A stretch of DNA of 64,000 bases from an uncultured Proteiniphilum sp. (GTDB taxonomy: Bacteria; Bacteroidota; Bacteroidia; Bacteroidales; Dysgonomonadaceae), in the NCBI GenBank assembly GCA_927407015.1, contig CAKMJT010000029.1, forward strand, positions 1-64,000, read 5' to 3'. Under the pieces are notes generated by a model. That model was not told the DNA's origin and made no database searches. It saw nothing but the letters and a program-made list of their open reading frames with translations. The number at the start of each line of letters is the position of its first letter. The stretch's first letter is position 1. The position numbers and the translations under genes are program-made. Of this stretch, positions 6,075-63,632 are shown in pieces.

Positions 6075-6830
6075 CTACTCCGCATGCTTCAGGTCGGTCA
6101 GCAGCTTCCCGATCTTCTCCGTCACCGCTTTCACATAACGCGCACCCTTTGCGGCAGTCGATTTTTTCGGGTTACCGATGCCGGTATCCGACGATACCTC
6201 ATCCCAATGGCGGGGCATCCATCCGATCTTTTGATCCACCGCCGCTATATGGCCCGGTCTCACCTTCCCGTCGCCGGCCCTCGCCATCGATACCAGTTCG
6301 GGGTGATAATGCAACATCACCGATGTCTCCTGCTCACCGGCATGTTCATCCGGTTTCTCTTCGAAATATCCTTCCGTGGGTACAATAGCCCACCAATCGA
6401 CTACGATCAGGCGGAAATCGGGGAAAGACATCGCCAGGTCACGCACGTACGGTTTCAGCGTGTTTCCGCCGTGACCGTTGATGATCACCATTTTACGAAA
6501 ACCCTGTCCGTAGAGCGATGTCACGATATCCACCAGAATCATTTTCTGCGTTTCGCTGCGCGTGTGCACACAGAAAGGCTTGTTCCATTGTCCTGCATTT
6601 TGTGAACCAAAAAAAACAGGGGGCATCACCATACAGGTGATACCCTTTTCCAGCACTTCATCTGCACAATCGCAGGCAATCTCGTAGGTGAGGATGCAAT
6701 CGGTCAGATAGGGCAGATGGTAGTTATGGGGTTCCACGGCTCCCCAGGGAAGAATGACAATATCGTAACTGTGCTCCAGTATTTCACCGTAATTGGTGTG
6801 AGGAATACGAAGAAAACTATTTTTTGACAT
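6075..6830 (-). CDS. Creatininase-family amidohydrolase
   Basis: A 251-residue protein of the creatininase/creatinine amidohydrolase family (metal-dependent hydrolases that include mycofactocin MftE and riboflavin-pathway ArfB). Family landmarks are LPWGAVEPHNYHLPYLTD, MVIINGHGGNTLKPYVRDL and DEHAGEQETSVMLHYHPELV, supplying the His/Asp/Glu metal ligands. The substrate cannot be told from sequence. It lies between the LuxR-type regulator (35-base gap) and mutA (63-base gap), all on the minus strand, so it is probably co-transcribed with the mutase genes. Confidence 0.85.
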   Translation of the reverse strand: MSKNSFLRIPHTNYGEILEHSYDIVILPWGAVEPHNYHLPYLTDCILTYEIACDCADEVLEKGITCMVMPPVFFGSQNAGQWNKPFCVHTRSETQKMILVDIVTSLYGQGFRKMVIINGHGGNTLKPYVRDLAMSFPDFRLIVVDWWAIVPTEGYFEEKPDEHAGEQETSVMLHYHPELVSMARAGDGKVRPGHIAAVDQKIGWMPRHWDEVSSDTGIGNPKKSTAAKGARYVKAVTEKIGKLLTDLKHAE

Positions 6831-34614: not shown

Positions 34615-36384
34615 ATGTATCAATATCCAAAAATCGGTATTCGCCCTACCATCGACGGTCGTCAGGGCGGCGTAAGGGAAAGCCTGGAAGAGAAAACGAT
34701 GAATCTGGCCAAATCGGTTGCCCGGTTAATCGAATCCAACTTAAAGAACGGCGACGGCACTCCCGTTGAGTGTGTGATAGCCGACGGCACCATCGGCCGT
34801 GTAGGGGAAAGTGCCGCCTGTGCCGCAAAATTTGAACGCGTGGGAGTCGGTTCCACCATCACGGTCACATCGAGTTGGTGTTACGGATCGGAGACGATGG
34901 ATATGAATCCCCACTACCCGAAAGCTGTCTGGGGATTCAACGGGACGGAACGTCCCGGCGCCGTATACCTGGCAGCCGTTCTGGCAGCGCATTCTCAGAA
35001 GGGATTGCCTGCTTTTGGCATTTATGGCCGTGAAATACAGGATGCTACGGATAATACGATTCCGGAGGACGTGGCAGCGGAGTTGCTTCGGTTTGCCCGT
35101 GCCGCACAGGCTGTGGCCACGATGCGGGGACAATCGTATCTATCCATAGGAAGCACAGCCATGGGTATTGCCGGCTCAATGGTGAATCCCGATTTTTTCC
35201 AGAAGTACCTGGGTATGCGCAACGAATCGGTCGATTCCACCGAGATCATCCGCCGGATTCAGGAGGGTATATACGATCAGGATGAGTTTGAAAAAGCGAT
35301 GGACTGGACTTCCACCTATTGCAAGGTAAATGAAGGAGCAGACGACAATCGTCCGGAGAAACAAAAAGATCGGGAAGGCAAAGACCAGGATTGGGAGTTT
35401 GTGGTCAAGATGACCATCATCATCCGTGACCTGATGAAAGGAAATCCCAGACTGAAAGAGATGGGGTTTAAGGAAGAGGCCATCGGACACAATGCGCTCC
35501 TGGGAGGTTTTCAGGGTCAGCGCCAGTGGACCGATTTCCTGCCGAACGGCGATTTCAGCGAGACAATACTGAACAGCTCGTTCGACTGGAACGGAATCCG
35601 TGAAGCCTATGTCCTGGCCACGGAAAACGATGCGCTGAACGGGGTTTCCATGTTGTTCGGCCACCTGCTCTCCAACAAGGCGCAGCTCTTCTCCGACGTA
35701 CGCACCTACTGGAGCCCTGAATCGGTAAAACGCGTCACGGGAAAGGAGCTTACCGGACAGGCTGCGAACGGCATCATTCACTTGCTCAATTCGGGGGCAA
35801 CAACCCTGGATGCGACCGGCAAGCAGAAATTAAACGGCGAGCCGGCCATGAAGGAACCCTGGAACATCCATGAAGAAGAAGTAGAAGCGTGTCTCAGGGC
35901 CACTACATGGTCACCTGCCAACAGGGATTACTTCCGCGGCGGCGGTTACTCCTCCACGTTCCTCTCAGAAGGAGGGATGCCTGTGACCATGTGCAGGTTA
36001 AATCTGGTAGATGGCCTGGGGCCGGTGCTCCAGATCGCCGAAGGATGGACCGTGGAGATTGACCCGGAGATACACGACATCATCAACCAGCGTACCGACA
36101 AGACCTGGCCTACCACCTGGTTTGCACCCCGTTTAACGGGCAAAGGACCTTTCAGGGATGTCTACTCGGTAATGAATAACTGGGGAGCCAATCACGGTGC
36201 CATCAGCTACGGACACATCGGACAGGATCTGATCACACTGGCATCTATGCTGCGAATCCCCGTTTGTATGCACAATGTGGAGGATGAAGAGATCTTCCGT
36301 CCTTCGGCATGGAACGCTTTCGGCATGGACAAAGAGGGAGCCGATTTCAGGGCCTGCAAGAACTTTGGACCCATCTATAAGTAA
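34615..36384 (+). CDS. fucI: L-fucose isomerase
   Basis: Converts L-fucose to L-fuculose in the cytoplasm; the family also accepts D-arabinose. The 589-residue length is typical and the sequence has the family start [40 protein letters not shown] and [29 protein letters not shown] near the C-terminus. It starts 290 bases after fucR, behind a putative FucR site, and is followed three bases later by fucP. Fuculokinase and fuculose-1-phosphate aldolase genes are not in the window. Confidence 0.97.
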
Positions 36385-36387
36385 ATT

Positions 36388-37713
36388 ATGGACGCATCCA
36401 AATCATCGTTACTAAAACACAACGGCGTAAACTACTTGCTGCCGTTCATCCTCATCACTGCCTGTTTTTCACTGTGGGGTTTTGCTAACGATATCACCAA
36501 TCCCATGGTGAAAGCTTTCTCCAAGATATTTCGAATGAGTGTTACAGAGGGAGCCCTGGTGCAATTGGCTTTCTATGGCGGATATTTTGCCATGGCATTT
36601 CCGGCAGCAATTTTTATCCGAAAATTCTCCTACAAGAAAGGGATCATGCTCGGGTTGCTGCTCTATGCTGTGGGAGCGTTTCTCTTTTTTCCCGCAAAAG
36701 AATCCGGAAGCTTCTATCCGTTTCTGGCCGCCTACTTTATCCTTACCTGCGGATTATCTTTTCTGGAAACAAGTGCCAATCCCTATATCCTTACGATGGG
36801 ACCGGAAGAATCGGCCACCCGCAGGCTCAATCTGGCACAATCATTCAACCCGATCGGGTCTCTGGCAGGAATGTATGTGGCCATGAACTTTATTCAGTCA
36901 AGGTTGAACCCCCTGAGCACAGCAGAGCGGGCTGCGCTCCCTGATGCGGAATTTGGGGTATTAAAGCAGTCCGATCTGTCGGTTCTGATTGCGCCCTATC
37001 TGTTTATTGGCGTCGTGGTTTTGGTCATGTTTCTGATTATCTGGATTGCGCGTATGCCGATAAACGGAGATAAGAACAAACAAATCAACTTCTTCCCTAC
37101 CCTGAAACGGATCTTCTCCGTACCCAACTACCGACAGGGAGTGATCGCTCAGTTTTTTTACGTGGGGGCGCAAATCATGTGCTGGACCTTCATCATTCAG
37201 TACGGCACACGAATATTTATGGCACAGGGAATGGAAGAACAGGCGGCAGAAGTACTTTCACAGAAGTACAATATTGTGGCCATGATCATCTTTTGTGTAA
37301 GCCGCTTTGTATGCACTTATCTGTTGAAATTCTTCAATCCGGGTAAGCTGTTACGGATACTTGCCATCGCAGCTGCAATATTTACGCTGGGTGTCATCTT
37401 TTCCCAGAACATTTGGGGATTATATTCCCTTGTGGCCGTGTCGGCCTGTATGTCGCTGATGTTCCCCACGATATACGGAATTGCATTGAAAGGCATGGGG
37501 GACGATGCCAAGTTCGGCGCAGCAGGATTGATCATGGCCATTCTGGGCGGATCGGTGCTGCCACCGCTGCAAGCCTCTATCATAGATCTGGGCAGCATCG
37601 GGAACTCGTTTCCGGCTGTAAACGCCTCTTTTATCCTGCCATTTATCTGTTTTGTGGTGGTGGCATGGTACGGAGCACAAGCCTATAGAAGAAGTATGAT
37701 CATGTACCGATAA
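36388..37713 (+). CDS. fucP: L-fucose:H+ symporter
   Basis: A 441-residue major-facilitator permease with about 12 membrane segments. The FucP family hallmark is the N-terminal LLPFILITACFSLWGFANDITNPMVKAFSKIF, including the conserved Asn-Asp, and FLETSANPYILTMGPEESATRRLNLAQSFNPIGS. The start is three bases after the fucI stop, so translation is coupled. It imports free L-fucose across the inner membrane. Confidence 0.96.
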   Translation: MDASKSSLLKHNGVNYLLPFILITACFSLWGFANDITNPMVKAFSKIFRMSVTEGALVQLAFYGGYFAMAFPAAIFIRKFSYKKGIMLGLLLYAVGAFLFFPAKESGSFYPFLAAYFILTCGLSFLETSANPYILTMGPEESATRRLNLAQSFNPIGSLAGMYVAMNFIQSRLNPLSTAERAALPDAEFGVLKQSDLSVLIAPYLFIGVVVLVMFLIIWIARMPINGDKNKQINFFPTLKRIFSVPNYRQGVIAQFFYVGAQIMCWTFIIQYGTRIFMAQGMEEQAAEVLSQKYNIVAMIIFCVSRFVCTYLLKFFNPGKLLRILAIAAAIFTLGVIFSQNIWGLYSLVAVSACMSLMFPTIYGIALKGMGDDAKFGAAGLIMAILGGSVLPPLQASIIDLGSIGNSFPAVNASFILPFICFVVVAWYGAQAYRRSMIMYR

Positions 37714-44963: not shown

Positions 44964-46058
44964 ATGAAAGGGAAATATAAATTAATAATCGGATTATTCT
45001 TTTTTACCTGGCTGATCAGTTGCTCCGATGAAAGTTTCATTGAAATCGACTCCCTGAGTTCGGATGGAAATGAATTCTATTGCAACCAGAAAGTAAAAAT
45101 ATGGATGAACGTTCGCTCAAGCGATCTTTGGCATACTGATTATGAGTGGAGTGCCGACGGTGGTACCCTCACACAGCCACAGGGATTGGATGAGATGACC
45201 TGGAAGGCGCCAAATGTTCCGGGTACCTATACCATACGTTGTAAAGTAACCGTAGGAGATAAAACAGACATCAGGGAAAAAAAGATGTTCGTTTCCAGTT
45301 ATTTTTTCGAGAAGTTTGAGAAATCACCCTATGCCTTTTCGGGACAATCGAGTACAACTCTGTCTCTGAGAACTGAAACTGTAAACGGACAGACTAACGG
45401 GTGGCTGCGGGCCAATGTGAACTCTTCAAGTGAGGTTAATCGCTATCTGAATCGCTCTTTTGGAGATCCTGAACTTGCCACACCCATTTCCATTCGGGCC
45501 AAAATAGGATTTGAATCAAACGCTCCTACGCTAGCAACAATTAAAGTGGGTAACAAAACCGGGAATACGATGTTGGAATATCAACTGAATTGTTTGAAGG
45601 ATCCATCATCGGAAACGGGCTTTGTGAGCAGAATCTCATTCATGTGGTATCCTACGAATGTATCCCCCGGATTTCCAGTCGTTCCGGAAGGCAGCATTTC
45701 GCCTGATGGCTCTGCAACTTACAATTCGAGAGTTACAATTCAAACGAGAAATGTGCTGGGTCTGACCACTACATACGATTACTATTACACGATCAGTAAA
45801 ATGTCAACCTTCACCAATAAAAATTACAAAAAGGTGGGAATGGCTATTGATGAGAATTATCAGCTCCACGTCTTTCTGGAAGGAGAGGAGGTTCTGACAA
45901 CACCGGTTATCAGTGAGCTTCGTACATTAAATCAGATACAAGGAGGTGTTTTCATTGACAACTGGCGGGTCGTTTTCCCGAATGGAAACGGAGGTGCCAA
46001 CAGGCCAATGCTCTATTTTGATGATGCCTACGCATCAACCACAGAGTTATTAAAATAG
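44964..46058 (+). CDS. Putative surface glycan-binding lipoprotein
   Basis: A 364-residue lipoprotein (C20 in WLISCSDES). Residues about 30-115 look like an Ig/PKD-type module (YEWSADGGTLTQPQGLDEMTWKAPNVPGTYTIRCKVTVGD); the remainder is beta-rich, possibly a concanavalin-like sandwich (FEKFEKSPYAFSGQ...GVFIDNWRVVFPNG...LYFDDAYAST). No catalytic motif is evident. Its position after susC/susD is where SusE/SusF-like binding proteins occur. Function by position only. Confidence 0.6.
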   Translation: MKGKYKLIIGLFFFTWLISCSDESFIEIDSLSSDGNEFYCNQKVKIWMNVRSSDLWHTDYEWSADGGTLTQPQGLDEMTWKAPNVPGTYTIRCKVTVGDKTDIREKKMFVSSYFFEKFEKSPYAFSGQSSTTLSLRTETVNGQTNGWLRANVNSSSEVNRYLNRSFGDPELATPISIRAKIGFESNAPTLATIKVGNKTGNTMLEYQLNCLKDPSSETGFVSRISFMWYPTNVSPGFPVVPEGSISPDGSATYNSRVTIQTRNVLGLTTTYDYYYTISKMSTFTNKNYKKVGMAIDENYQLHVFLEGEEVLTTPVISELRTLNQIQGGVFIDNWRVVFPNGNGGANRPMLYFDDAYASTTELLK

Positions 46059-46199: not shown

Positions 46200-46877
46200 A
46201 TGAAAACACAGGTATTATTCATAGGATTGCTGCTCTGTTCTTCAATCCTTACAGCACAGGATACAATAAAAGGTGTCATTATTTCCGACAAGGGAAAACC
46301 TGTACGTCGAATGAATGTATGGGTAAAAAATTCGCTGGACGGAGTTAAAACGGACAAACAAGGTGAATTTATATTACAGGATCTGAGTGAAAAAGATACA
46401 CTGATCATCTCTGTTTCAAAAAAACAGGATGCCGTGATACCACTGAAAGATAGGGGAGATGAGTTAATAATTAAGTTGAAAAAGAACGAATTTATTTTGC
46501 AAGACAATTCGCAGGAATTCACATACCCTTATTCAAACAAAACATTGTTGGCATTCAATCCGAATATTCTTACCCGCCGCCAAATTGAACAGAGTGGTGC
46601 AAACTCCCTGTATGATTTGTTGAGAGGGAATCTCCCGGGAGTGACGGTCTCCGAGGTCAATGGCAATACCCTCGTAACCATTCGTGGAGGAAGTTCTTTT
46701 GATCTGAACAATGAACCGCTTTTTATTATAGACGGGATCGAATACAGAGGAAGTTATGATGCCGATCGTGCTGTGAATATACATGATATTGAACAATTAG
46801 AGGTGCAGAGCGATGGAGCGATGTACGGAATTAAAGGATCAAATGGGGCAATTGTAATTACAACCAAAAAAAAGTAG
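46200..46877 (+). CDS. Plug-only SusC-like protein without beta-barrel
   Basis: The 225-residue protein has a signal peptide (1-20), a carboxypeptidase-regulatory-like domain (IKGVIISDKGKPVRRMNVWVKNSLDGVKTDKQGEF) and a TonB-receptor plug (LYDLLRGNLPGVTVSEVNGNTLVTIRGGSSFDLNNEPLFIIDGIEY, MYGIKGSNGAIVITTKKK), then stops exactly where the barrel would begin. No barrel remnant follows; the next gene starts 31 bases later. Stand-alone plug proteins occur in Bacteroidetes but are poorly understood. It might cap or modulate a SusC, or interact with TonB. Confidence 0.75.
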   Translation: MKTQVLFIGLLLCSSILTAQDTIKGVIISDKGKPVRRMNVWVKNSLDGVKTDKQGEFILQDLSEKDTLIISVSKKQDAVIPLKDRGDELIIKLKKNEFILQDNSQEFTYPYSNKTLLAFNPNILTRRQIEQSGANSLYDLLRGNLPGVTVSEVNGNTLVTIRGGSSFDLNNEPLFIIDGIEYRGSYDADRAVNIHDIEQLEVQSDGAMYGIKGSNGAIVITTKKK

Positions 46878-46908: not shown

Positions 46909-47910
46909 ATGGATATCAATTATGTAAAATACTTTTCAATCTGTATTTTAATGCTGCTTCCTCTGTTATCCTGTCATTCACAGGAAGAAACGAAAACAAT
47001 ACCCCCATCCTCGACAGAAGATAAGGAAAAAAAGGATGTGGATAATCCTACTGCAAATGGATACCTGTTACAAAGTTCCATGCAGGGGGCTTCTTCGTTG
47101 ACAGACAAGGACTATACCGTGATTCACAACTACATGAGGCTATATGGATGGGATTATACGGAACATCCGAATTCATCTGAAAAAGACCATCATGATGGCG
47201 TACATTGCCTGAATATTTACGATGAGAGCTTGCAACAATATGTATTTCAACTTATTTCCCATGTCAACCCGTTTTTGGATGGCGACAGAGGTAAACTGGA
47301 AGACAGGCAGCGGAATGAAATGAAGTCGCAGACGTCAGAAAATTGGTTTAAGATGAATGGGAATTGGGATGAACGACAATGGTTGGAATGGAAATTCAAA
47401 ATACCGAAAGGGTTTCGTCCATCAACCAGTTTTTGCCATATTCATCAGCTAAAAGCTCAGGAAGGAAATAACGGGGCTCCCATTATTACGATTACGCTAC
47501 GTGGAAACAACAACGGTACAAACAGAAGGGTACAGGTAATCCATACCGGGGATGTTTCTTCCACGAACAAAGGTACTATTGTGGACAATATTCCCATGGA
47601 GGAATTCGAAGACGAATGGGTGCAGGTACAGGAAGAGGTTCACTATATCCACAACGGTTTTTTCCGGATCAAAATTATCCGGATAAGAGACAATAAAGTA
47701 TTGATGGATTATTCCATCGACAACATTGATATGTGGCGAAAAGGTGCTACGAATATTCGCAATAAATTTGGTATTTACCGCAGCTACGGAAAGACATTAA
47801 GCGATCAGAACGACAGGCCAAGTAACGGCATCAAAGACGAATCGCTACTCCTGGGGGATTTTTACATCTACGAAAAAAACACAAATCCGAATCCTCAACC
47901 GCATGATTGA
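46909..47910 (+). CDS. Lipoprotein with heparinase-I/PL20-type jelly-roll, candidate polysaccharide lyase
   Basis: A 333-residue lipoprotein (C22 in LLPLLSCHSQ) with a low-complexity linker to about residue 48. The domain that follows has DRQRNEMKSQ (132-141), WLEWKFKIPKGFRPSTSFCHIHQLKA with H177 and H179, and NKFGIYRSYG (285-294). This order resembles concanavalin-like lyases such as PL13, PL14 and PL20 and relatives, in which an Arg-Asn-Glu patch and histidines neutralise and deprotonate uronate. Two GH105 domains downstream would use the unsaturated products. The family assignment is tentative. Confidence 0.6.
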   Translation: MDINYVKYFSICILMLLPLLSCHSQEETKTIPPSSTEDKEKKDVDNPTANGYLLQSSMQGASSLTDKDYTVIHNYMRLYGWDYTEHPNSSEKDHHDGVHCLNIYDESLQQYVFQLISHVNPFLDGDRGKLEDRQRNEMKSQTSENWFKMNGNWDERQWLEWKFKIPKGFRPSTSFCHIHQLKAQEGNNGAPIITITLRGNNNGTNRRVQVIHTGDVSSTNKGTIVDNIPMEEFEDEWVQVQEEVHYIHNGFFRIKIIRIRDNKVLMDYSIDNIDMWRKGATNIRNKFGIYRSYGKTLSDQNDRPSNGIKDESLLLGDFYIYEKNTNPNPQPHD

Positions 47911-54820: not shown

Positions 54821-54895
54821 TTCATAGAATGTTTAATTTTGATAATGTGCGATTTGTTTTATCAAAGAATGTCAACCCCTACAACAAGTTTTAAT

Positions 54896-57394
54896 ATGAA
54901 ACATCCCGTATTTTTTATTTTAATATTCCTTTTCGCCATAATACCGATTAAAATTATTGGACAAGAAGGTTTAACGCCACAAATTGATTTCAAACAATAT
55001 GCGTCTTCTGCCGATTTGAAATATGAGACTCCGGCGTCAACCAGTGAGGAAGGACTTCCCATTGGCAACGGAGTGATGGGAACATTACAATGGACCACCC
55101 CTACTTCAATCCGGTATCAACTGAACAGAGTCGACGTTTTTGGAAATAACGCAGAAAGTAATAATTTCTATGAACGACATACGGATTATTGCGGTGGTGT
55201 AGGGTTTATTGACATTGATTTCCCGAATTATAACGATCTGTTCGCCGGCGATGAGTTTTTGCAGCATTTGTCATGTTATACAGCCACTGTGGCGACCAAA
55301 GGGAAGCATGTAAATACCGAAACTTTTGTGTGGAGCGATGAGGATGTGATGGTGATGAATGTGGCATATGATGAATCCTCTCCCATTGTCGTTCATTTAA
55401 GGTCTTTACGACCCTTAATCACGAAAACGGGAGACCATTCTGCCATCTCATCACTGAAGCAAGGAACAGACAACACAATCGTACTCCTGCAGACATTCAA
55501 AGAAAAAGACTATGTTTGCAAGTCTGCTGTTGTGGTGAAGATAGTAGGTGTTCCGTCTAAATCGAGATTCGCAAATGAAACGGATATTACTTTAACGGCA
55601 ATCCCGGAAAATGGAAACGCTTTTCAGGTATATGTGGCAAGTGCGGCATCATTCAACGAAGATGCGGATGTTGAGGGGGAGGCAATACAAAAGCTTCAAA
55701 GAGCAATTGGATTGGGATATGATACTGTTTTATCGCATCATCAGCAATGGTGGAAATCATTCTGGGAAAAATCGTTCGTTAAATTGCACAGCAATGATGG
55801 CGTAGCCGATAAAATAATGGAGAATTACACCTATTTCCAATACGTGATGGGATCATCCTCTCGGGGTACATATGCACCAAAATTTAACGGCATGCTCTGG
55901 ACTACCGGAGGCGATTCGCGGAAATGGGGAAATCTGTTTTGGGGAGCCAACCAGAGTTGTTATTACAACGGATTATTTCCAACAAACCGGCTGGAATTGA
56001 TGAAGCCGTTCTTTGACATGTATTCCCAAATGATGCCATCTCTCGAGCGTGCCGCCGTACAACAATGGGACAGTAAAGGAATCTTCATTCCTGAAACCGT
56101 AGGTTTCGACGGCCTGCCGGAGCTACCAGATGAAATTGCAAAGGAGATGCGGGATTTGTATTTGCTGAGAAAGTCTTGGGATGAGCGATCAGATTCCTTC
56201 AACGAATATGCAAAAACAAAAATGCCGTTCAACAGCCGCTGGAACTGGAAACAGGATGAAGGCTGGAAGGATGGCACCTGGCATTTCTCAGATAAGGGAG
56301 GCGGCCCTTTCGGGCATGTCACACATATTTTCTCCCGGGGAGCTAAAATTGCCTATCAATATTGGATGTATTATGAATATACCCAAGACAAAGCATGGCT
56401 TAGAGAACGAGCATATCCGATGTTAAAGGGGGTAGCAGAGTTTTACCGGAACTTTCCCCATCTGAAAAAGGAGCGTGACGGAAAATATCATATCCGGCAT
56501 GTAAACGACAATGAGTCGGTATGGGACGGACACAATACGGTGGAAGAGATTTCGTCCATGATGGGAATTTTACCGGTAACGATCCGTGCAGCGGAAATTT
56601 TGGACATTGATGCTGATTTACGTGAACTATGGGAAGAGATCTTGGTAAATCTGTCACCTTTGCCTATCAGTGATTCATATCCTGAATTAATGGAACGTCC
56701 CGTTACATTTGTGCGATCACTCCAACCGGTATTAAAAGGGCCTGCTTCACGCGTTCCGGATCCTAATACCATGCCTGTATGGTTTTTCGATTTATACACG
56801 TTAGAATCCACAGACCAGAAAATGATGCAAATAGCAAACAACACGTTTGATGCCTATTTCCCTTCCGGGATTACCAGGAATTCTCCTGTATATGTCTTAT
56901 CCAAGCTTCCGGTAGCAGGAACACAACTCGGACGTGCAGATGCAACAAGATATCTGATTTCCAATCAGGTTGAATCTCAGGAAACGGTGATTCTGAGAAA
57001 CCGGATGGACTTACGCGAAGGCTTTCAAACTACAGGTGTGCAACGCCTGGGTCGCGCAGCCGATGCGCTTCATAATGCATTGTGTCAAAGCATTCCGGCC
57101 TCACCCGGAAAAGATCCGGTGATTCATCTATTTCCTGCCTGGCCAGAAGAATGGGAGGCTGATTTTAGTTTATTGACTCGGGGTAACTTCATGGTAACGT
57201 CAAGCATGCATAACGGGAAAATCGAGTTCGTGGAAATTAAATCGAACTCTGGCATGCAATGTAATTTACACAATCCCTGGGAAAAAGGAAAAGTATCTAT
57301 TTATAAAAATAACAGGAAAGTTTTAGAGACAACCGACAGGCTTATCTCAATTTCTACAGAACCCGAGGACCATTTATTTATTTACAATAAATAA
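54896..57394 (+). CDS. Secreted DUF5703/GH95-like glycoside hydrolase homologue
   Basis: The ORF opens at 54839, but ATG 54896 gives a proper signal peptide (MKHPVFFILIFLFAIIPIKIIGQ) and is used here (832 residues). The N-terminal beta-sandwich contains SEEGLPIGNGVMGTLQWTTPTSIRYQLNRVDVFGNN, which parallels the LPIGNGRLGAM start of GH95 alpha-fucosidases/galactosidases and matches my memory of DUF5703. An (alpha/alpha)6-barrel follows (WGNLFWGANQSCYYNGLFPTN..., RPVTFVRSLQPVLKGPASRVPDPN). GH95-type activity would fit a fucose- or galactose-containing glycan but is not proven. Confidence 0.65.
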   Translation: MKHPVFFILIFLFAIIPIKIIGQEGLTPQIDFKQYASSADLKYETPASTSEEGLPIGNGVMGTLQWTTPTSIRYQLNRVDVFGNNAESNNFYERHTDYCGGVGFIDIDFPNYNDLFAGDEFLQHLSCYTATVATKGKHVNTETFVWSDEDVMVMNVAYDESSPIVVHLRSLRPLITKTGDHSAISSLKQGTDNTIVLLQTFKEKDYVCKSAVVVKIVGVPSKSRFANETDITLTAIPENGNAFQVYVASAASFNEDADVEGEAIQKLQRAIGLGYDTVLSHHQQWWKSFWEKSFVKLHSNDGVADKIMENYTYFQYVMGSSSRGTYAPKFNGMLWTTGGDSRKWGNLFWGANQSCYYNGLFPTNRLELMKPFFDMYSQMMPSLERAAVQQWDSKGIFIPETVGFDGLPELPDEIAKEMRDLYLLRKSWDERSDSFNEYAKTKMPFNSRWNWKQDEGWKDGTWHFSDKGGGPFGHVTHIFSRGAKIAYQYWMYYEYTQDKAWLRERAYPMLKGVAEFYRNFPHLKKERDGKYHIRHVNDNESVWDGHNTVEEISSMMGILPVTIRAAEILDIDADLRELWEEILVNLSPLPISDSYPELMERPVTFVRSLQPVLKGPASRVPDPNTMPVWFFDLYTLESTDQKMMQIANNTFDAYFPSGITRNSPVYVLSKLPVAGTQLGRADATRYLISNQVESQETVILRNRMDLREGFQTTGVQRLGRAADALHNALCQSIPASPGKDPVIHLFPAWPEEWEADFSLLTRGNFMVTSSMHNGKIEFVEIKSNSGMQCNLHNPWEKGKVSIYKNNRKVLETTDRLISISTEPEDHLFIYNK

Positions 57395-57434: not shown

Positions 57435-58562
57435 ATGAAAAAAATAATTCTATTATTACTCATAATATATCCATACAGTATTTATTCTCAGAATATTAAT
57501 CTGAATAAATGGAAGGATAACGATGATCCGAAAAAAATCGGACTGCTTGTTTCGAATCGTTTTGTGGAGAGTCCGCATAATAGTTTCCGCCCTCCCACCC
57601 CGACAAAATCAATCACATACCCCGAAGTGTGTGCCTGGTACGGTGCATTGCGATTTGCAAAAGTCACCGAAAACAGTTTGCTGTCAAATCAGCTCAATGA
57701 CCGGTTTAAGCATTTGATAAATAATGAAAAGCACTTAATACCGAAGCCGGCACATGTAGATAATACGGTTTTTGGCGCAGTTCCTTTCGAACTTTTTTTA
57801 CAAACCGGAGAAAAAAAGTATTTAGATCTTGCCCTTCAGATTGCAGATGCACAATGGGAAATGCCGGAGAATGTATCTCCAGAGAAAGCTGCATCTTATA
57901 AGGCACTGCTGGATAACAACCTGACATGGCAGACACGCTATTGGATTGACGATATGTTTATGATTACCATGGTGCAGACGCAGGCCTACAGGGCAACGGG
58001 GGATAAGAAATATATCGACAGAACTGCTTATGAGATGTATGTGTATCTCGATACCCTGCAGCAGGCTAACGGCTTGTTTTATCATTCTCCCGATGCTCCT
58101 TACTTCTGGGGACGCGGAAATGGATGGATGGCAGCCGGAATGGCTGAACTTCTCATTTCATTGCCTGAAGATAATAAATACAGAACACCTATCATGGCAT
58201 CTTATCTGAGAATGATGGAGAGTTTAAAAAAATATCAAAAACAATCAGGCCTTTGGGGACAGCTTATCGATGACAAAGAAGCGTGGGACGAAACTTCCTG
58301 CTCGGCCATGTTTACCTATGCAATGATTGTGGGCGTAAAACGGGGATGGCTGGATAAAAAGACATATGTACCGGTAATTGAGAAAGCCTGGCCTGCACTG
58401 GTAAAACATATTAATCCTGATGGAGACATTGATGAAGTTTGCGAGGGAACAAATCGTAAAAATGATCGTCAATATTACCTCGACAGAAAAAGAAAGACAG
58501 GCGATATGCACGGTCAGGCACCCATTTTATGGTGTGCAGCAGCTCTCTTGGAAGATTTGTAA
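57435..58562 (+). CDS. GH105 unsaturated glycuronyl hydrolase
   Basis: A 375-residue enzyme with a signal peptide (1-19) and the GH105 (alpha/alpha)6 motifs WIDDMFMITMVQTQAYRATGD (Asp 172/173), PYFWGRGNGWMAAGMAELL, DETSCSAMFTYAM and DMHGQAPILWCAAALLED. Family members remove the 4,5-unsaturated uronate left at the non-reducing end by polysaccharide lyases, by hydration. It starts 40 bases after the DUF5703/GH95-like gene. Confidence 0.9.
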   Translation: MKKIILLLLIIYPYSIYSQNINLNKWKDNDDPKKIGLLVSNRFVESPHNSFRPPTPTKSITYPEVCAWYGALRFAKVTENSLLSNQLNDRFKHLINNEKHLIPKPAHVDNTVFGAVPFELFLQTGEKKYLDLALQIADAQWEMPENVSPEKAASYKALLDNNLTWQTRYWIDDMFMITMVQTQAYRATGDKKYIDRTAYEMYVYLDTLQQANGLFYHSPDAPYFWGRGNGWMAAGMAELLISLPEDNKYRTPIMASYLRMMESLKKYQKQSGLWGQLIDDKEAWDETSCSAMFTYAMIVGVKRGWLDKKTYVPVIEKAWPALVKHINPDGDIDEVCEGTNRKNDRQYYLDRKRKTGDMHGQAPILWCAAALLEDL

Positions 58563-58579
58563 ACAAAAGGATGATTAAA

Positions 58580-60733
58580 ATGAAAAGTAAGAAAATCACA
58601 CTTAGTATTTTCTTTTTACTGTTGGTTCTGCCATTTAAGGTAAAGTCACAGCAATATGAAAGCATCAAAGAATATCTGTCTCCTGCTGTAAAAAACGGGG
58701 GTTTTTCCATGAATGATTACATTCTATGGTGTCCCACAGTGATAAAAGTAGATGGTACCTATCACATGTTTGCTTCCCGTTGGCCCGTAAAATACGGACT
58801 TGGGGGTTGGACCAAATATTCGGAATGTGTCAGGGCGACTTCCGAAAATTTATACGGCCCTTATGAATTTCAGGAAGTCGTTTTACAAAAGAGACCGGAT
58901 GCTTGGGATAATTCCCGCGTACACAACGTGAAAATTGTAAAAACAAAAGATAAGTTTGTGCTCTACTATATCAACTCGGCCAATCAGATCGGTTATGCAG
59001 AAGCTGATAAAATAACAGGCCCGTGGACGAGGGTAGATGAACCGATTCTCCACTTTAGCAACCCTGCTCCTCTTGTGAGAGAAGATGGAAGTATCTATAT
59101 TTTTGGCCGCTTGCGCGATACTGAGGACAAAAACAGAGGTGTGGCCGCCGTTGCTCCCTCTTATAAAGATCCGTATGCGCTGATCGAAGAGGGGAAAAAT
59201 CTCCTGCCCAATGACTATGAATTGGAAGACCCAACAATCTGGTGGGCAAACAATCAATACAACATCATCTGTAACGATTGGAAAGCGAAAGCCACGGGGG
59301 TAACAAAAGGTGGGGCTCAATATTACTCAAAAGATGGCGTAACCTACCATCTGGTATCGCAAAAACCAATCTTTAACCGAAATGAACCGGTAGTTTATGA
59401 TGACGGATCGGCGGAGAAATTTGCAAGAATTGAACGTCCCTTTGTCTTTACAAACGAAAAAAATGAGGTAATTGCCCTTTTCACAGCCAATCTTTACTCC
59501 GATTCATTGGGAGGAAGAGCCAAAATTGTGGTTCATCCAGTAAATAATTACTATCCTAAAGAGGTAGCTGCCAAAGCACGGCGTGGCACATCACAGGGAT
59601 TGCCCGATGCACGCCTGCCATATACACCCGGCAAACCCGTAAAGTATTGGTCATTAGCCACGGCGGCCAGTATAATGTCACGTTACCCCGATTATCGTGA
59701 AGCGTACTGGAAACCCTGGTCGTATGTGCAGGGATATATGTTCTATGGTTTTGAAATGTTGTATCGTCTCACCGGAGATACACAATACATGGATTTTATA
59801 AAAAAATATGTCGACCATTTCGTGGATGAGCAGGGGAATTTTCATGGGGATAAACTGACTAATCTGGATAACTTAATGACGGGTAACAGCATTGTAGGTT
59901 TGTATGAGTACACAAAAGACATTCGTTACAAAACCGCTGCAGATCAGTTTCGAAAAGTATTCGATACCTATCCCCGAAGTGCGGATGGTCAGTTCTGGCA
60001 TGGGGATAAATCTCCCAATATGTGGATCGACGGAGTTTTCATGGGACAAATGTTTTTAATCAGATATGGAAAATCAATCGGCGATACATACTATTGTTTT
60101 GATGAAGCTGCCCGGCAGGTTTTGGTTTGTGCAAAGCATTTAAGAAAAGGAAATTCCGGATTGTATCTGCATGCCTGGACCGAAAAACCGGAGTTGGTGA
60201 AATGGGCTGACCCGAAAACCGGACTTTCGCCCGAAGTATGGAGTGAAGGAATGGGCTGGTTTGCTTTGATGGTAGCTGAATTGCTTGCTGAAATGCCCCA
60301 AACGCATCCGAAATACAATGAGATTCAAAAATTATATGTGGAGATGGCTTCGGATCTAAAAAAATACCAGGATAAAAAAACAGGCGGCTGGTATATGATT
60401 GTAGACAAAGGCAATCATCCTGACAACTGGATTGACCCGTCGGGTACCGGAATGTTTTTGTATGCCTTACAAAAAGGGATTGAATTAAATCTTATATCTC
60501 AAAAAGAATTCAATCCTGTTGTGAAAAAAGCGTACAAATGTTTGATCTCGTTTGCCAAAATCAACGAAAGAGGATTGGTAGATATTGAAGGCGGGGGCGA
60601 TGGAATTTCAGTAAAACCGGATTATGAAACCTATGTGCATTATCAAAAAATGACAAATGCAAAAGAAACGGTAGGTGCTTTCCTCTGGGGCACAACGATC
60701 ATGGAGAAACCCCGAAAGTTAATATTAGAATAA
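58580..60733 (+). CDS. Beta-propeller glycosidase-like domain fused to GH105
   Basis: A 717-residue secreted fusion. ATG 58580 has AAGG nine bases upstream and a signal peptide (1-24); the ORF-track start lies inside the previous gene. Residues about 30-335 look like a five-bladed propeller of GH43/GH117-type enzymes (ILWCPTVIKVDGTYHMFASRWP, ELEDPTIWWANNQYNIICNDW, RIERPFVFTNEKNEVIALFTANL). Residues about 355-717 are a GH105-like (alpha/alpha)6 domain (NMWIDGVFMGQMFLIRYGK with D484; EVWSEGMGWFALMVAELLAEMP; DPSGTGMFLYALQKG). The two activities would act on successive bonds of a lyase product. Confidence 0.78.
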   Translation: MKSKKITLSIFFLLLVLPFKVKSQQYESIKEYLSPAVKNGGFSMNDYILWCPTVIKVDGTYHMFASRWPVKYGLGGWTKYSECVRATSENLYGPYEFQEVVLQKRPDAWDNSRVHNVKIVKTKDKFVLYYINSANQIGYAEADKITGPWTRVDEPILHFSNPAPLVREDGSIYIFGRLRDTEDKNRGVAAVAPSYKDPYALIEEGKNLLPNDYELEDPTIWWANNQYNIICNDWKAKATGVTKGGAQYYSKDGVTYHLVSQKPIFNRNEPVVYDDGSAEKFARIERPFVFTNEKNEVIALFTANLYSDSLGGRAKIVVHPVNNYYPKEVAAKARRGTSQGLPDARLPYTPGKPVKYWSLATAASIMSRYPDYREAYWKPWSYVQGYMFYGFEMLYRLTGDTQYMDFIKKYVDHFVDEQGNFHGDKLTNLDNLMTGNSIVGLYEYTKDIRYKTAADQFRKVFDTYPRSADGQFWHGDKSPNMWIDGVFMGQMFLIRYGKSIGDTYYCFDEAARQVLVCAKHLRKGNSGLYLHAWTEKPELVKWADPKTGLSPEVWSEGMGWFALMVAELLAEMPQTHPKYNEIQKLYVEMASDLKKYQDKKTGGWYMIVDKGNHPDNWIDPSGTGMFLYALQKGIELNLISQKEFNPVVKKAYKCLISFAKINERGLVDIEGGGDGISVKPDYETYVHYQKMTNAKETVGAFLWGTTIMEKPRKLILE

Positions 60734-60746
60734 AAATAATACCGGT

Positions 60747-63632
60747 ATGAGAACTTTTCCTTATTTACTACAAATACTTATCTTTATTGCAATAAATGCA
60801 GAGGCAAGGCTGGCGGATAATTCCGGTAACGCATCCGACTCTTCATTTTTGCCTAAGTCGCACATATATAAAGAGACACCCGATTCACTAATTTTCATTT
60901 CTGGCTTAACCCAAGTCTTTACCGTGGATACACCCGAAGACGAGGGGTTAACAGCCACGACTCTTAGAGTAGAAGATCTGTTAAAAGCAGCCGAAAAAGA
61001 GGCCGGATTTCGTTACAAGGTTTTTAGCTCTGTTGGCCATGAAAAGAAAGAAGGCATTTTTGAATCGGGAGACTATATCGAAAAAACTAATCATAAAACA
61101 GGTAAAAAACAGGTAAAAAAAGTAGGAATAAAACGTGCTGCCATTAGAGGAACGCTCCTGTTGGATAAGACCCGGATGACGGTCGGCAGCAAGAACGACA
61201 TTATTCTCACTTTCTATGCAGGCCAACGTTCTCCGATGACGGATGTGGTTATCACCATTCCCAACGGAATACGCATAACCCCGGATAATACCTTCATCAA
61301 TGTGATAGGTCGCGGTGAAGTGCTCCTTAAGGACCTGGCCAAACAATCGATAGGCCGTACAGGAACGAATTATTCCTATCGCCGGGTGGGAAGTGTGGAA
61401 ATTAAAGAGAATGAATGCAACGGGCAGCAGCTTATAATTTCAAATCTCGACTTCAGGCCTGCAAACGGAGCTGATTTAATCATTCGGATTCAACATCCCG
61501 GTATCAACAAAACGGGACAATACTTGTTTTCGTCGCGTTATAAAACTTCTGAGCCTGAAAGTTTCACGAGCCCGGGTGGAGGAATAGAAAATGTAGTTTT
61601 AACAGTTGTCAATGAGATTAGCGACTTTGTCAGAATCATGCCGCAACCCAGGAAATATGAAAGATCGGAACTTACAACGGCCGGTTTTTCGTGGACCCCT
61701 GCAAAAGATGCCTCCATGGTCAGATTGTTACAATCCACAGACAAAGGGAATACGTGGCAAAACGCCAACGTGATCATTGCTCCGGGAAGTGATAAGGCAA
61801 CAATTCGTAACCTGACACCCAATCAGCTTTATGCATTTAAGTTAGAAGTCGATGATGGTCTTAACCAGGGAATTTCCAACATTGCCTGGCTTTATTCGGG
61901 CATGCTGGATGTGAAAACGATGGGCGTAACGGGGGACGGGAAAACCGATGACACGGAAAAAATCAACGAAGCATTGGACTTCATCAATAAGATTGGGGGT
62001 GGCATCGTGCTGTTTTCCGAAGGACAATACAACGTACGGACCGTGTACCTGCAAAGCAACGTTTGGCTCTACATCGACAGAAAAGCTGCCATTCAGGCCA
62101 TAGAAGGAAGTGACGAGCCGGAAGCAACCTGGTTCAGTGATCTTGCTTATCGTTCGGGATTATCGCCCACCGATCCGAAACCCTATCAGGATCCCGAAAA
62201 TTATCTGACAAAACAGGATGTGGGGCATACATTCTTTCGCAACGCGATGTTCTTTGCCGAAAGAGCGGATAACATCAAAATTATAGGAAACGGGTATATC
62301 ACTGGAAATGGAGTTTTGGCTACTTCCGATCGCGTAATGAACAATGTTCCCGGAAAAAGAGCAGATAAGATGTTTTCTTTAAAATTGTGCTCCAATATCG
62401 AGATTGGCGGATTGGATAACGGAAAGGACTTATGGTACGACCCCGATAAAGATCTCCCCTATTATATTGATGGAACTGAGTATGACGATAGTAACATGCT
62501 GCAAATAGACAGAGGGGGGCATTTTATTCTCCTGGCTACGGGAACCGATAACGTATATGTACATAATACCTGCTTTGCAAAAAGGAACAGCTTAAACGCG
62601 CGTGACATTTACGACTTTATGGCTTGTAATAACGTTATAGTTACCAATATTTACTCAAAAGTCAGTTCCGATGATATTGTAAAATTGGGATCAGATTGTG
62701 CATTGGGATTCACACGACCGGTAAAAAATTATAGGATACGAAATATCATTGGAGATACGAACTGTAACTTATTTCAAATAGGTTCCGAAACAGCTGACGA
62801 CATTCAGGATGTGTATGTAGACAATATCTATGTACTGGGATCGAATAAAGCAGGCTTTTCAATCTCTACAAACGATGGAGGCCATATAAAAAACATACAC
62901 CTGAACAGTGGACGGACAGGAACTCTTCATTCACGCTCGGTCATGAAACGTACAAGAGCACCTTTCTTTATTTCCATTTCAAACAGGGCGCGCGTTATCG
63001 GAGCAGATGTAGCAAAATTTTCATTTAATGAGAATGGAGCAACAAGAAGTGAATTACTGGTAACAAACGTGAGTATTGGAAAAGTTGAGAACGTCACGAT
63101 CAACAAAGTCGATATTTCGGAGGTATACGGAGGAAGTTCTTTCCGTGGGGACAGGTGGAAAGCGTATGACGGTTCTCAAAATAAAGCAACGGCGATAATT
63201 GCGGGCTACAAGTTACCCGATGAAGCGGACGTGGAAGGTGGACTTAACTTCAAGTTGCCAAACGGGCAACACAACGGCTATATTGAAAATATCAGCTTTA
63301 GCGACGTGAACCTGACAGTAAAGGGAGGGCACGCTGCTGCCGACGCCGGATTGATCCCCCCGGAATTGGGTGTGGGACGTTACAACGTGTCTGATTTCCA
63401 GATACAACCCTCCTACGGTTTTTGGATACGCCATGTAAAAAATCTTACCTTGAAAAATTGTAACATAAAAACAGAAAAAGCCGATGGCCGCTACGCAGTG
63501 GTTTTAGATGACGTACACAATGCCAAAATAACCCGATTGAAGGTGACAAACGAAGGAGTTGCCGATGAGGCGATAAAAATTATTCGTTCTTCCGGAATAA
63601 AAATTATTAACTGTTCATATAAAGTGTTATGA
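60747..63632 (+). CDS. Large GH28-like beta-helix glycosidase with N-terminal extension
   Basis: A 961-residue secreted protein. After a signal peptide come about 280 residues of unknown, partly helical and beta structure, an FN3-like module (about 300-385; FSWTPAKDASMVRLLQSTDKGNTW) and a right-handed beta-helix (386-961) starting DVKTMGVTGDGKTDDTEKINEALDFINKIGGGIVLFSEGQY, a GH28/pectin-lyase start. Catalytic-region equivalents are LNARDIYDF and VSSDDIVKLGSD (D642, D643). The usual GHG histidine is replaced by DTNCNLFQIGSET, so the family fit is loose. It follows the GH105 fusion by 13 bases and overlaps the next start (ATGA). Confidence 0.7.
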   Translation: MRTFPYLLQILIFIAINAEARLADNSGNASDSSFLPKSHIYKETPDSLIFISGLTQVFTVDTPEDEGLTATTLRVEDLLKAAEKEAGFRYKVFSSVGHEKKEGIFESGDYIEKTNHKTGKKQVKKVGIKRAAIRGTLLLDKTRMTVGSKNDIILTFYAGQRSPMTDVVITIPNGIRITPDNTFINVIGRGEVLLKDLAKQSIGRTGTNYSYRRVGSVEIKENECNGQQLIISNLDFRPANGADLIIRIQHPGINKTGQYLFSSRYKTSEPESFTSPGGGIENVVLTVVNEISDFVRIMPQPRKYERSELTTAGFSWTPAKDASMVRLLQSTDKGNTWQNANVIIAPGSDKATIRNLTPNQLYAFKLEVDDGLNQGISNIAWLYSGMLDVKTMGVTGDGKTDDTEKINEALDFINKIGGGIVLFSEGQYNVRTVYLQSNVWLYIDRKAAIQAIEGSDEPEATWFSDLAYRSGLSPTDPKPYQDPENYLTKQDVGHTFFRNAMFFAERADNIKIIGNGYITGNGVLATSDRVMNNVPGKRADKMFSLKLCSNIEIGGLDNGKDLWYDPDKDLPYYIDGTEYDDSNMLQIDRGGHFILLATGTDNVYVHNTCFAKRNSLNARDIYDFMACNNVIVTNIYSKVSSDDIVKLGSDCALGFTRPVKNYRIRNIIGDTNCNLFQIGSETADDIQDVYVDNIYVLGSNKAGFSISTNDGGHIKNIHLNSGRTGTLHSRSVMKRTRAPFFISISNRARVIGADVAKFSFNENGATRSELLVTNVSIGKVENVTINKVDISEVYGGSSFRGDRWKAYDGSQNKATAIIAGYKLPDEADVEGGLNFKLPNGQHNGYIENISFSDVNLTVKGGHAAADAGLIPPELGVGRYNVSDFQIQPSYGFWIRHVKNLTLKNCNIKTEKADGRYAVVLDDVHNAKITRLKVTNEGVADEAIKIIRSSGIKIINCSYKVL

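Follow-up and report, generated by a model that had tools for sequence, protein, structure and literature searches.

A secreted fusion of a GH105 domain with a GH117/GH43-fold propeller that lacks two of three canonical catalytic residues

Introduction

Can one secreted protein carry two glycosidase active sites that serve the same lyase-cut oligosaccharide? The question is raised by a gene in the window, the 64,000-nucleotide stretch of an uncultured Proteiniphilum sp. contig analyzed here (features in Table 1). A first-pass annotation of this gene had described two complete-looking catalytic-type domains, a GH43/GH117-type propeller and a GH105 enzyme, in one secreted chain next to a separate GH105, and had proposed that the protein performs two consecutive steps on a lyase product.

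Table 1. Positions in the window of the fusion gene, its domains and key residues, and neighboring genes.
Feature	Position	Strand	Evidence or remark
Propeller–GH105 fusion gene	58580..60733	+	717 aa: signal peptide, five-bladed propeller, linker, GH105
Signal peptide, residues 1–23, without lipobox Cys	58580..58648	+	sequence; low pLDDT for residues 1–24
GH117/GH43-fold five-bladed propeller, residues 23–328	58646..59563	+	profile, Pfam, model, Foldseek
Flexible linker, residues 328–342	59561..59605	+	pLDDT <50; junction compared with L015, L016
GH105 domain, YteR-like, residues 346–716	59615..60727	+	Pfam, best solved relative, pocket residues
Cys51, blade 1, at GH117 base Asp90 position	58730..58732	+	hhalign
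His115-Asn116, blade 2, invariant	58922..58927	+	alignment of relatives
Asn161, blade 3, at GH117 Asp245/GH43 pKa modulator position; invariant Asn	59060..59062	+	motif match NP vs DP
Glu216-Asp217, blade 4, invariant; Glu216 at GH43 acid position, beside GH117 His302; Asp217 at GH117 Glu303	59225..59230	+	
Glu285-Arg286, blade 5, invariant; Glu285 aligns with catalytic Gln of GH43_24	59432..59437	+	
Asp430, equivalent to YteR Asp88	59867..59869	+	alignment
Asp484, equivalent to YteR Asp143, C=C hydration residue	60029..60031	+	alignment
Glu556, at YteR Arg213; invariant Glu in this GH105 group	60245..60247	+	alignment
Separate GH105	57435..58562	+	Pfam; adjacent upstream of fusion gene
GH28-like protein, BT4146 rhamnogalacturonidase-like	60747..63632	+	relative fused to propeller in L016
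GH95/GH65-like hydrolase	54839..57394	+	Pfam
L-fucose isomerase and L-fucose permease	34615..37713	+	upstream of fusion

Results

Architecture of the fusion protein

The secreted propeller–GH105 chain is real: a single open reading frame with a signal peptide encodes it, and the same fused frame is found in G029 (locus L013) and G026 (L014), making three related genomes in all. The dN/dS values (0.03–0.06 for the propeller, 0.05–0.10 for the GH105 half) indicate strong purifying selection on both halves; thus neither is decaying, and together with the recurrence of the frame they exclude a chance event. In-frame ATGs at 58571 and 58529 permit a longer N-terminus. The secreted protein is probably periplasmic. 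The separate GH105 does lie directly upstream, its stop 17 bases before the fusion gene, which itself ends 13 bases before the gene for the GH28-like protein. The full-length model (pLDDT 87.6, pTM 0.60) contains two well-predicted domains joined by a low-confidence linker, and therefore predicts no fixed mutual orientation of the two. We found no report of this fusion in the open-licence literature, and an NCBIfam search returned no specific family.

The GH105 half retains a complete pocket

The GH105 half matches Pfam PF07470 (GH88/GH105) with an E-value of 3.5e-78 over profile positions 5–349 of 352, and its best solved relative is the GH105 enzyme YteR (E 1.5e-65). We aligned it with YteR and about 45 relatives, taking the pocket residues and their roles from PMC4528949. 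The equivalents of YteR Tyr41, Asp88, His132, Asp143, Met147, His189, Trp211, and Trp217 are all present. Two other positions differ: YteR Lys133 is replaced by Gly in the fusion, and the Arg213 position is Glu throughout the close GH105 relatives and Arg in more distant YteR-like proteins. Arg213, kept in YteR and Cac_GH105, is a pocket residue and not the catalytic Asp (PMC4528949), and we read its replacement as a difference in specificity, not a departure from the GH105 family. With its pocket complete and these two positions changed, the GH105 half is expected to be catalytically competent with an altered specificity; to judge from Glu in place of Arg213 and the missing Lys133, the neighboring sugar may be other than that of YteR.

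The propeller has the GH117/GH43 fold and a different conserved site

A Pfam scan of the whole protein left residues 23–328 without a match; scanned alone, the propeller reached GH43 barely above the cut-off (32.7 vs 32.2 bits), and 20 of its 21 relatives also matched Pfam GH43 (E up to 1). A profile search against GH117 structures gave 3p2n with an E-value of 2.9e-10, the match spanning part of the chain only. The model (pLDDT 94.1) is confidently a five-bladed propeller, so the fold feature of GH117 is present, and Foldseek returned as best match the GH117 structure 3p2n (E 1e-12), followed by GH137 BT_0996, GH159, GH43, and GH62. The relatives carry the annotation “glycoside hydrolase family protein” only.

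Propellers of this fold carry their catalytic residues where the first strand of a blade begins, or close by. In the model these strands begin from fragment residues 25, 93, 138, 193, and 261, and the conserved residues of the propeller lie at or near these points. Nine residues (W50, W68, H115, N116, N161, E216, D217, E285, and R286) are identical in 22 of 22 relatives, down to 26% identity, and the motifs recur in Paenibacillus, Catenovulum, and Bacteroides (B. finegoldii) plasmid copies. The site is thus conserved, yet it is not that of GH117 or of a standard GH43.

We compared the propeller with eight GH117 proteins by hhalign, using the residue roles given in PMC11574756. The GH117 general base, Asp90 of the RRDP motif, is absent and Cys51 lies opposite it; across the 22 relatives this blade-1 residue is Cys in 15, Gly in 4, and Asp in 3. 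The general acid His302 with Glu303 and Asp320 is likewise not kept: Glu216-Asp217 is found there, with Asp217 opposite Glu303, and Asp233, retained in 19 of 22 relatives, probably takes the place of Asp320. The Glu167 position is Lys, and the blade-3 motif is SNP, not HDP. Of the standard GH43 triad (blade-1 base Asp, blade-3 Asp, blade-4 Glu) the propeller has Cys51, Asn161, and Glu216, so that one position of three is retained. A cysteine nucleophile, as in GH127, was ruled out by the occurrence of Cys, Asp, or Gly at this position. Among characterized GH43 and GH117 enzymes we found no match for the loss of both the base and the pKa-modulator positions.

By sequence and profile alignment, then, the propeller has the GH117/GH43 fold without the catalytic set of GH117 or of standard GH43. 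The first-pass annotation had named the lack of catalytic carboxylates in one half as what would refute it; in this half they are lacking at two of three positions, although the replacement set is invariant. Its description of two complete-looking domains applies to the GH105 half and not to the propeller, for which it was right about the fold and not about the canonical catalytic residues. The propeller probably acts with a non-standard residue set, in a poorly known enzyme family.

Candidate acid and base residues

GH43_24 enzymes are active without the blade-1 Asp and use a Gln instead, Gln263 in Pc1,3Gal43A and, as predicted, Gln577 in BT3683 (PMC7939473); because of this precedent, the absence of the base Asp need not mean inactivity. 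A GH43_24 domain encoded in the same genome as the fusion has the exact BT3683 spacing of 367/541/577 (E367-W541-Q577: 174 and 210), which fixes its catalytic Gln. In a gapped global profile alignment (E 8.8e-7), the acid Glu of GH43_24 is matched by E216 of the propeller and its catalytic Gln by E285; the local alignment leaves blade 5 unplaced. BT3683 and Pc1,3Gal43A are absent among the sequence matches of the propeller and appear only as profile matches (E 8.8e-7 to 1.2e-7). From the alignment we infer that E216 is the acid and E285 the base.

That GH43_24 domain belongs to a 1020-residue GH105–GH43_24–GH16 protein (G000:C16:105867–108926; L130:868–3927, minus strand), with best PDB matches to 5noa for the GH105 half, 6eug (E 1.7e-158) for the propeller, and GH16 laminarinases. 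Relatives with frames of about 1000 residues occur in several genomes of the genus. With its three catalytic modules, the protein resembles an enzyme for arabinogalactan. Its presence shows that multi-step chains of this kind exist.

Genomic neighborhood

Upstream of the fusion, the window also contains two sulfatases, GH97, and two SusCD pairs. The hydrolase at 54839–57394 gives partial matches to GH95, GH65, and DUF5703_N, with no clear single membership. Past the window, the same contig encodes a PL6-type lyase, GH28, a PF05426 (alginate-lyase-family) lyase, GH31, GH36, GH29, GH95, and GH29; the PL6-type and PF05426 genes, which belong to the same cluster as the fusion and lie just past the window, mean that a lyase source for an unsaturated end exists. 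This set of partner genes suggests a target glycan containing fucose and uronate.

Among 23 propeller loci without the GH105 half, GH29 occurs in eight, GH95 in eight, and GH28 in five. A recognizable GH105 is present in one of the 23, with none found in the other 22 within the DNA examined. GH29 near the propeller (8 of 23 loci vs 5 of 31 GH105b loci) is not significantly enriched (Fisher p 0.20). In Paenibacillus, a propeller copy lies between genes annotated as glucuronate isomerase and GH88, followed by an alpha-L-fucosidase. This “GH88” has no recognizable relation to the GH105 proteins of the window at E 1e-4, and the neighbors annotated as glucuronate isomerase in Paenibacillus and fucose isomerase in B. 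finegoldii are unrelated to each other.

A conserved stand-alone N-terminus of a TonB receptor (regulatory and plug domains, 225–233 residues, no barrel) is encoded at 46200–46877 of the window and at 6251–6949 of L016. It adjoins two proteins without Pfam matches (44964–46058 and 46909–47910).

History of the fusion

In G034 (L015) the same gene order is found as separate genes: the propeller, a GH29 fucosidase, and a GH105b with its own signal peptide. At the fusion junction, the propeller C-terminus YYPK is followed directly by RRGTSQGL, the N-terminus of mature GH105. Compared with L015, the junction lacks precisely the stop codon of the propeller gene, the gene for GH29, and the signal peptide of GH105. 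In L016 the propeller is fused to a GH28-like protein related to the product of the gene that follows the fusion, and the junction holds a 33-base stretch resembling the GH105 N-terminus (26 of 33 identical). Random draws from L016 matched this stretch equally well about 12 times in 200,000, the number expected from the junction itself. Given this scar, L016 probably descends from a fused ancestor and has lost the GH105 domain. The two halves differ in synonymous distance (L014–L015, dS 0.23 for GH105b and 0.83 for the propeller), which points to recombination between loci. What looked like an insertion in the G026 propeller (L014, L003) proved to be masked sequence, about 75 codons of N, and was ruled out.

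Most propeller relatives are stand-alone genes; apart from the GH28-like protein, the other fusion partner is a sulfatase (L073). Same-class relatives of the propeller in L073 and L080 adjoin, and are fused to, a sulfatase. GH105b is fused to PL6 (L021), GH97 (L006), another GH105 (L026, L029), Mal s 1/arylsulfotransferase-type domains (L018, L024), and beta-helix proteins (L037, L045). At L037:5535–9191, L045:6273–9248, and L021:4799–7354, GH105b follows domains of beta-helix or lyase type (PL6-type, weak PF14099), and these chains probably combine a lyase and an unsaturated uronidase in one protein.

Discussion

We lean, by a modest measure, toward a secreted enzyme with two active sites on a flexible linker, a GH105 uronidase and a propeller with acid Glu216 and base Glu285, directed at a lyase-cut, uronate-rich, and probably fucose-containing polysaccharide. 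Lyases encoded nearby would make a terminal unsaturated uronate, and the GH105 half would hydrate its C4=C5 bond, releasing the uronate. The propeller, as an inverting exo-glycosidase of a putative GH43/GH117-fold family, would rely on Glu216 as acid, and Glu285 of blade 5 would stand in as base for the missing blade-1 Asp, by analogy with the blade-5 Gln of GH43_24. Both halves may act on the same oligosaccharide, in either order. The two consecutive steps first proposed for this protein are plausible: nearby lyase genes, the full GH105 pocket, and the GH105–GH43_24–GH16 parallel speak for them, and the single GH105 among 23 propeller-only loci and the GH29 between the halves in L015 speak against. 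A bolder version, about which we are somewhat more doubtful than hopeful, is that the propeller founds an uncatalogued GH family with members in Bacteroidota, Verrucomicrobiota, Bacillota, Gammaproteobacteria, and one archaeon. Such a family would have given up the two canonical Asp residues and would use a Glu of blade 4 as acid and a Glu of blade 5 as base; in the present protein it would be joined to an unsaturated uronidase whose +1 specificity is new.

The propeller could instead be a true GH117 or an ordinary GH43 exo-hydrolase with standard residues, as originally supposed. GH117 is indeed the best fold and profile match, and Pfam GH43 is at the cut-off; but the substitutions at Asp90 (Cys/Asp/Gly), His302-Glu303 (Glu-Asp), Asp245 (Asn), and Glu167 (Lys), the partial profile match, and the absence of an agar-type context make this very improbable, the sequence already contradicting it largely. 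Alternatively, the propeller may only bind sugar and so keep the GH105 enzyme attached to its oligosaccharide. This non-catalytic role would account for the loss of two of three canonical carboxylates, and, as binding modules do, the propeller joins varied enzymes across genomes (GH105, GH28-like, sulfatase). We nevertheless consider it unlikely, since binding alone would not usually demand that E216, D217, and E285 be invariant in 22 of 22 relatives, most of these relatives are stand-alone genes, and GH43_24 enzymes work without the base Asp (PMC7939473).

A further alternative concerns the meaning of the fusion and is compatible with our preferred reading of each half: two active enzymes may have been joined by gene deletion and act on different oligosaccharides of one polysaccharide, the fusion saving a signal peptide and having no catalytic meaning. 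The separate halves in L015, the exact content of the deletion, the apparent loss of the GH105 half in L016, the restriction of the fusion to three genomes, and the rarity of a GH105 near the propeller all favor this, and we give it a substantial chance, a little below even. Against it, three diverged genomes retain the fused form, on which purifying selection is strong, and fusions to other enzymes of this type of gene cluster are seen repeatedly, both for GH105b and for the propeller.

If the propeller of the two-active-site enzyme is active, it would represent a second route by which the GH43/GH117 fold works without a base aspartate, and would assign a role to a widespread family whose members are at present annotated just as “glycoside hydrolase family protein”. 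Domains of the GH105, PL6, GH97, GH28, sulfatase, and propeller types are fused to one another repeatedly; these combinations give a clue to the activities that converge on a single oligosaccharide and could help to work out the fucose- and uronate-containing glycan.

Among known systems, YteR (1nc5/2gh4) shares the catalytic pocket of the GH105 half, including Asp88 and Asp143, and differs in Lys133 (Gly in the fusion) and Arg213 (Glu in the whole group). The GH117 enzymes (BpGH117, 3p2n/4ak5; Zg3615, 4u6d) resemble the propeller in their five blades and give its best Foldseek and profile matches, but their Asp90, His302, and Asp245 positions are not kept, and identity in the structural match is 14–19%. 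GH43_24 (BT3683, 6eug; Pc1,3Gal43A, 7bys) likewise lacks the blade-1 base Asp and, as proposed for the propeller, has a blade-4 acid Glu and a blade-5 side chain at the base place, whereas the propeller has Glu-Arg in place of the blade-5 Gln, Asn for the blade-3 Asp, His115 for the blade-2 Glu102, and weak overall similarity. The GH43-like CbE1Xyn43-l, outside the CAZy classification when its description appeared, is active with Asn at the blade-3 pKa-modulator position, as in the propeller (PMC11022575), but it is an endo-xylanase that retains the blade-1 base Asp. The trimodular protein of the same genome also combines, within one polypeptide, an unsaturated uronidase and a propeller lacking the base, but in reverse domain order, with an additional GH16, a true GH43_24 propeller, and a 5noa-type GH105.
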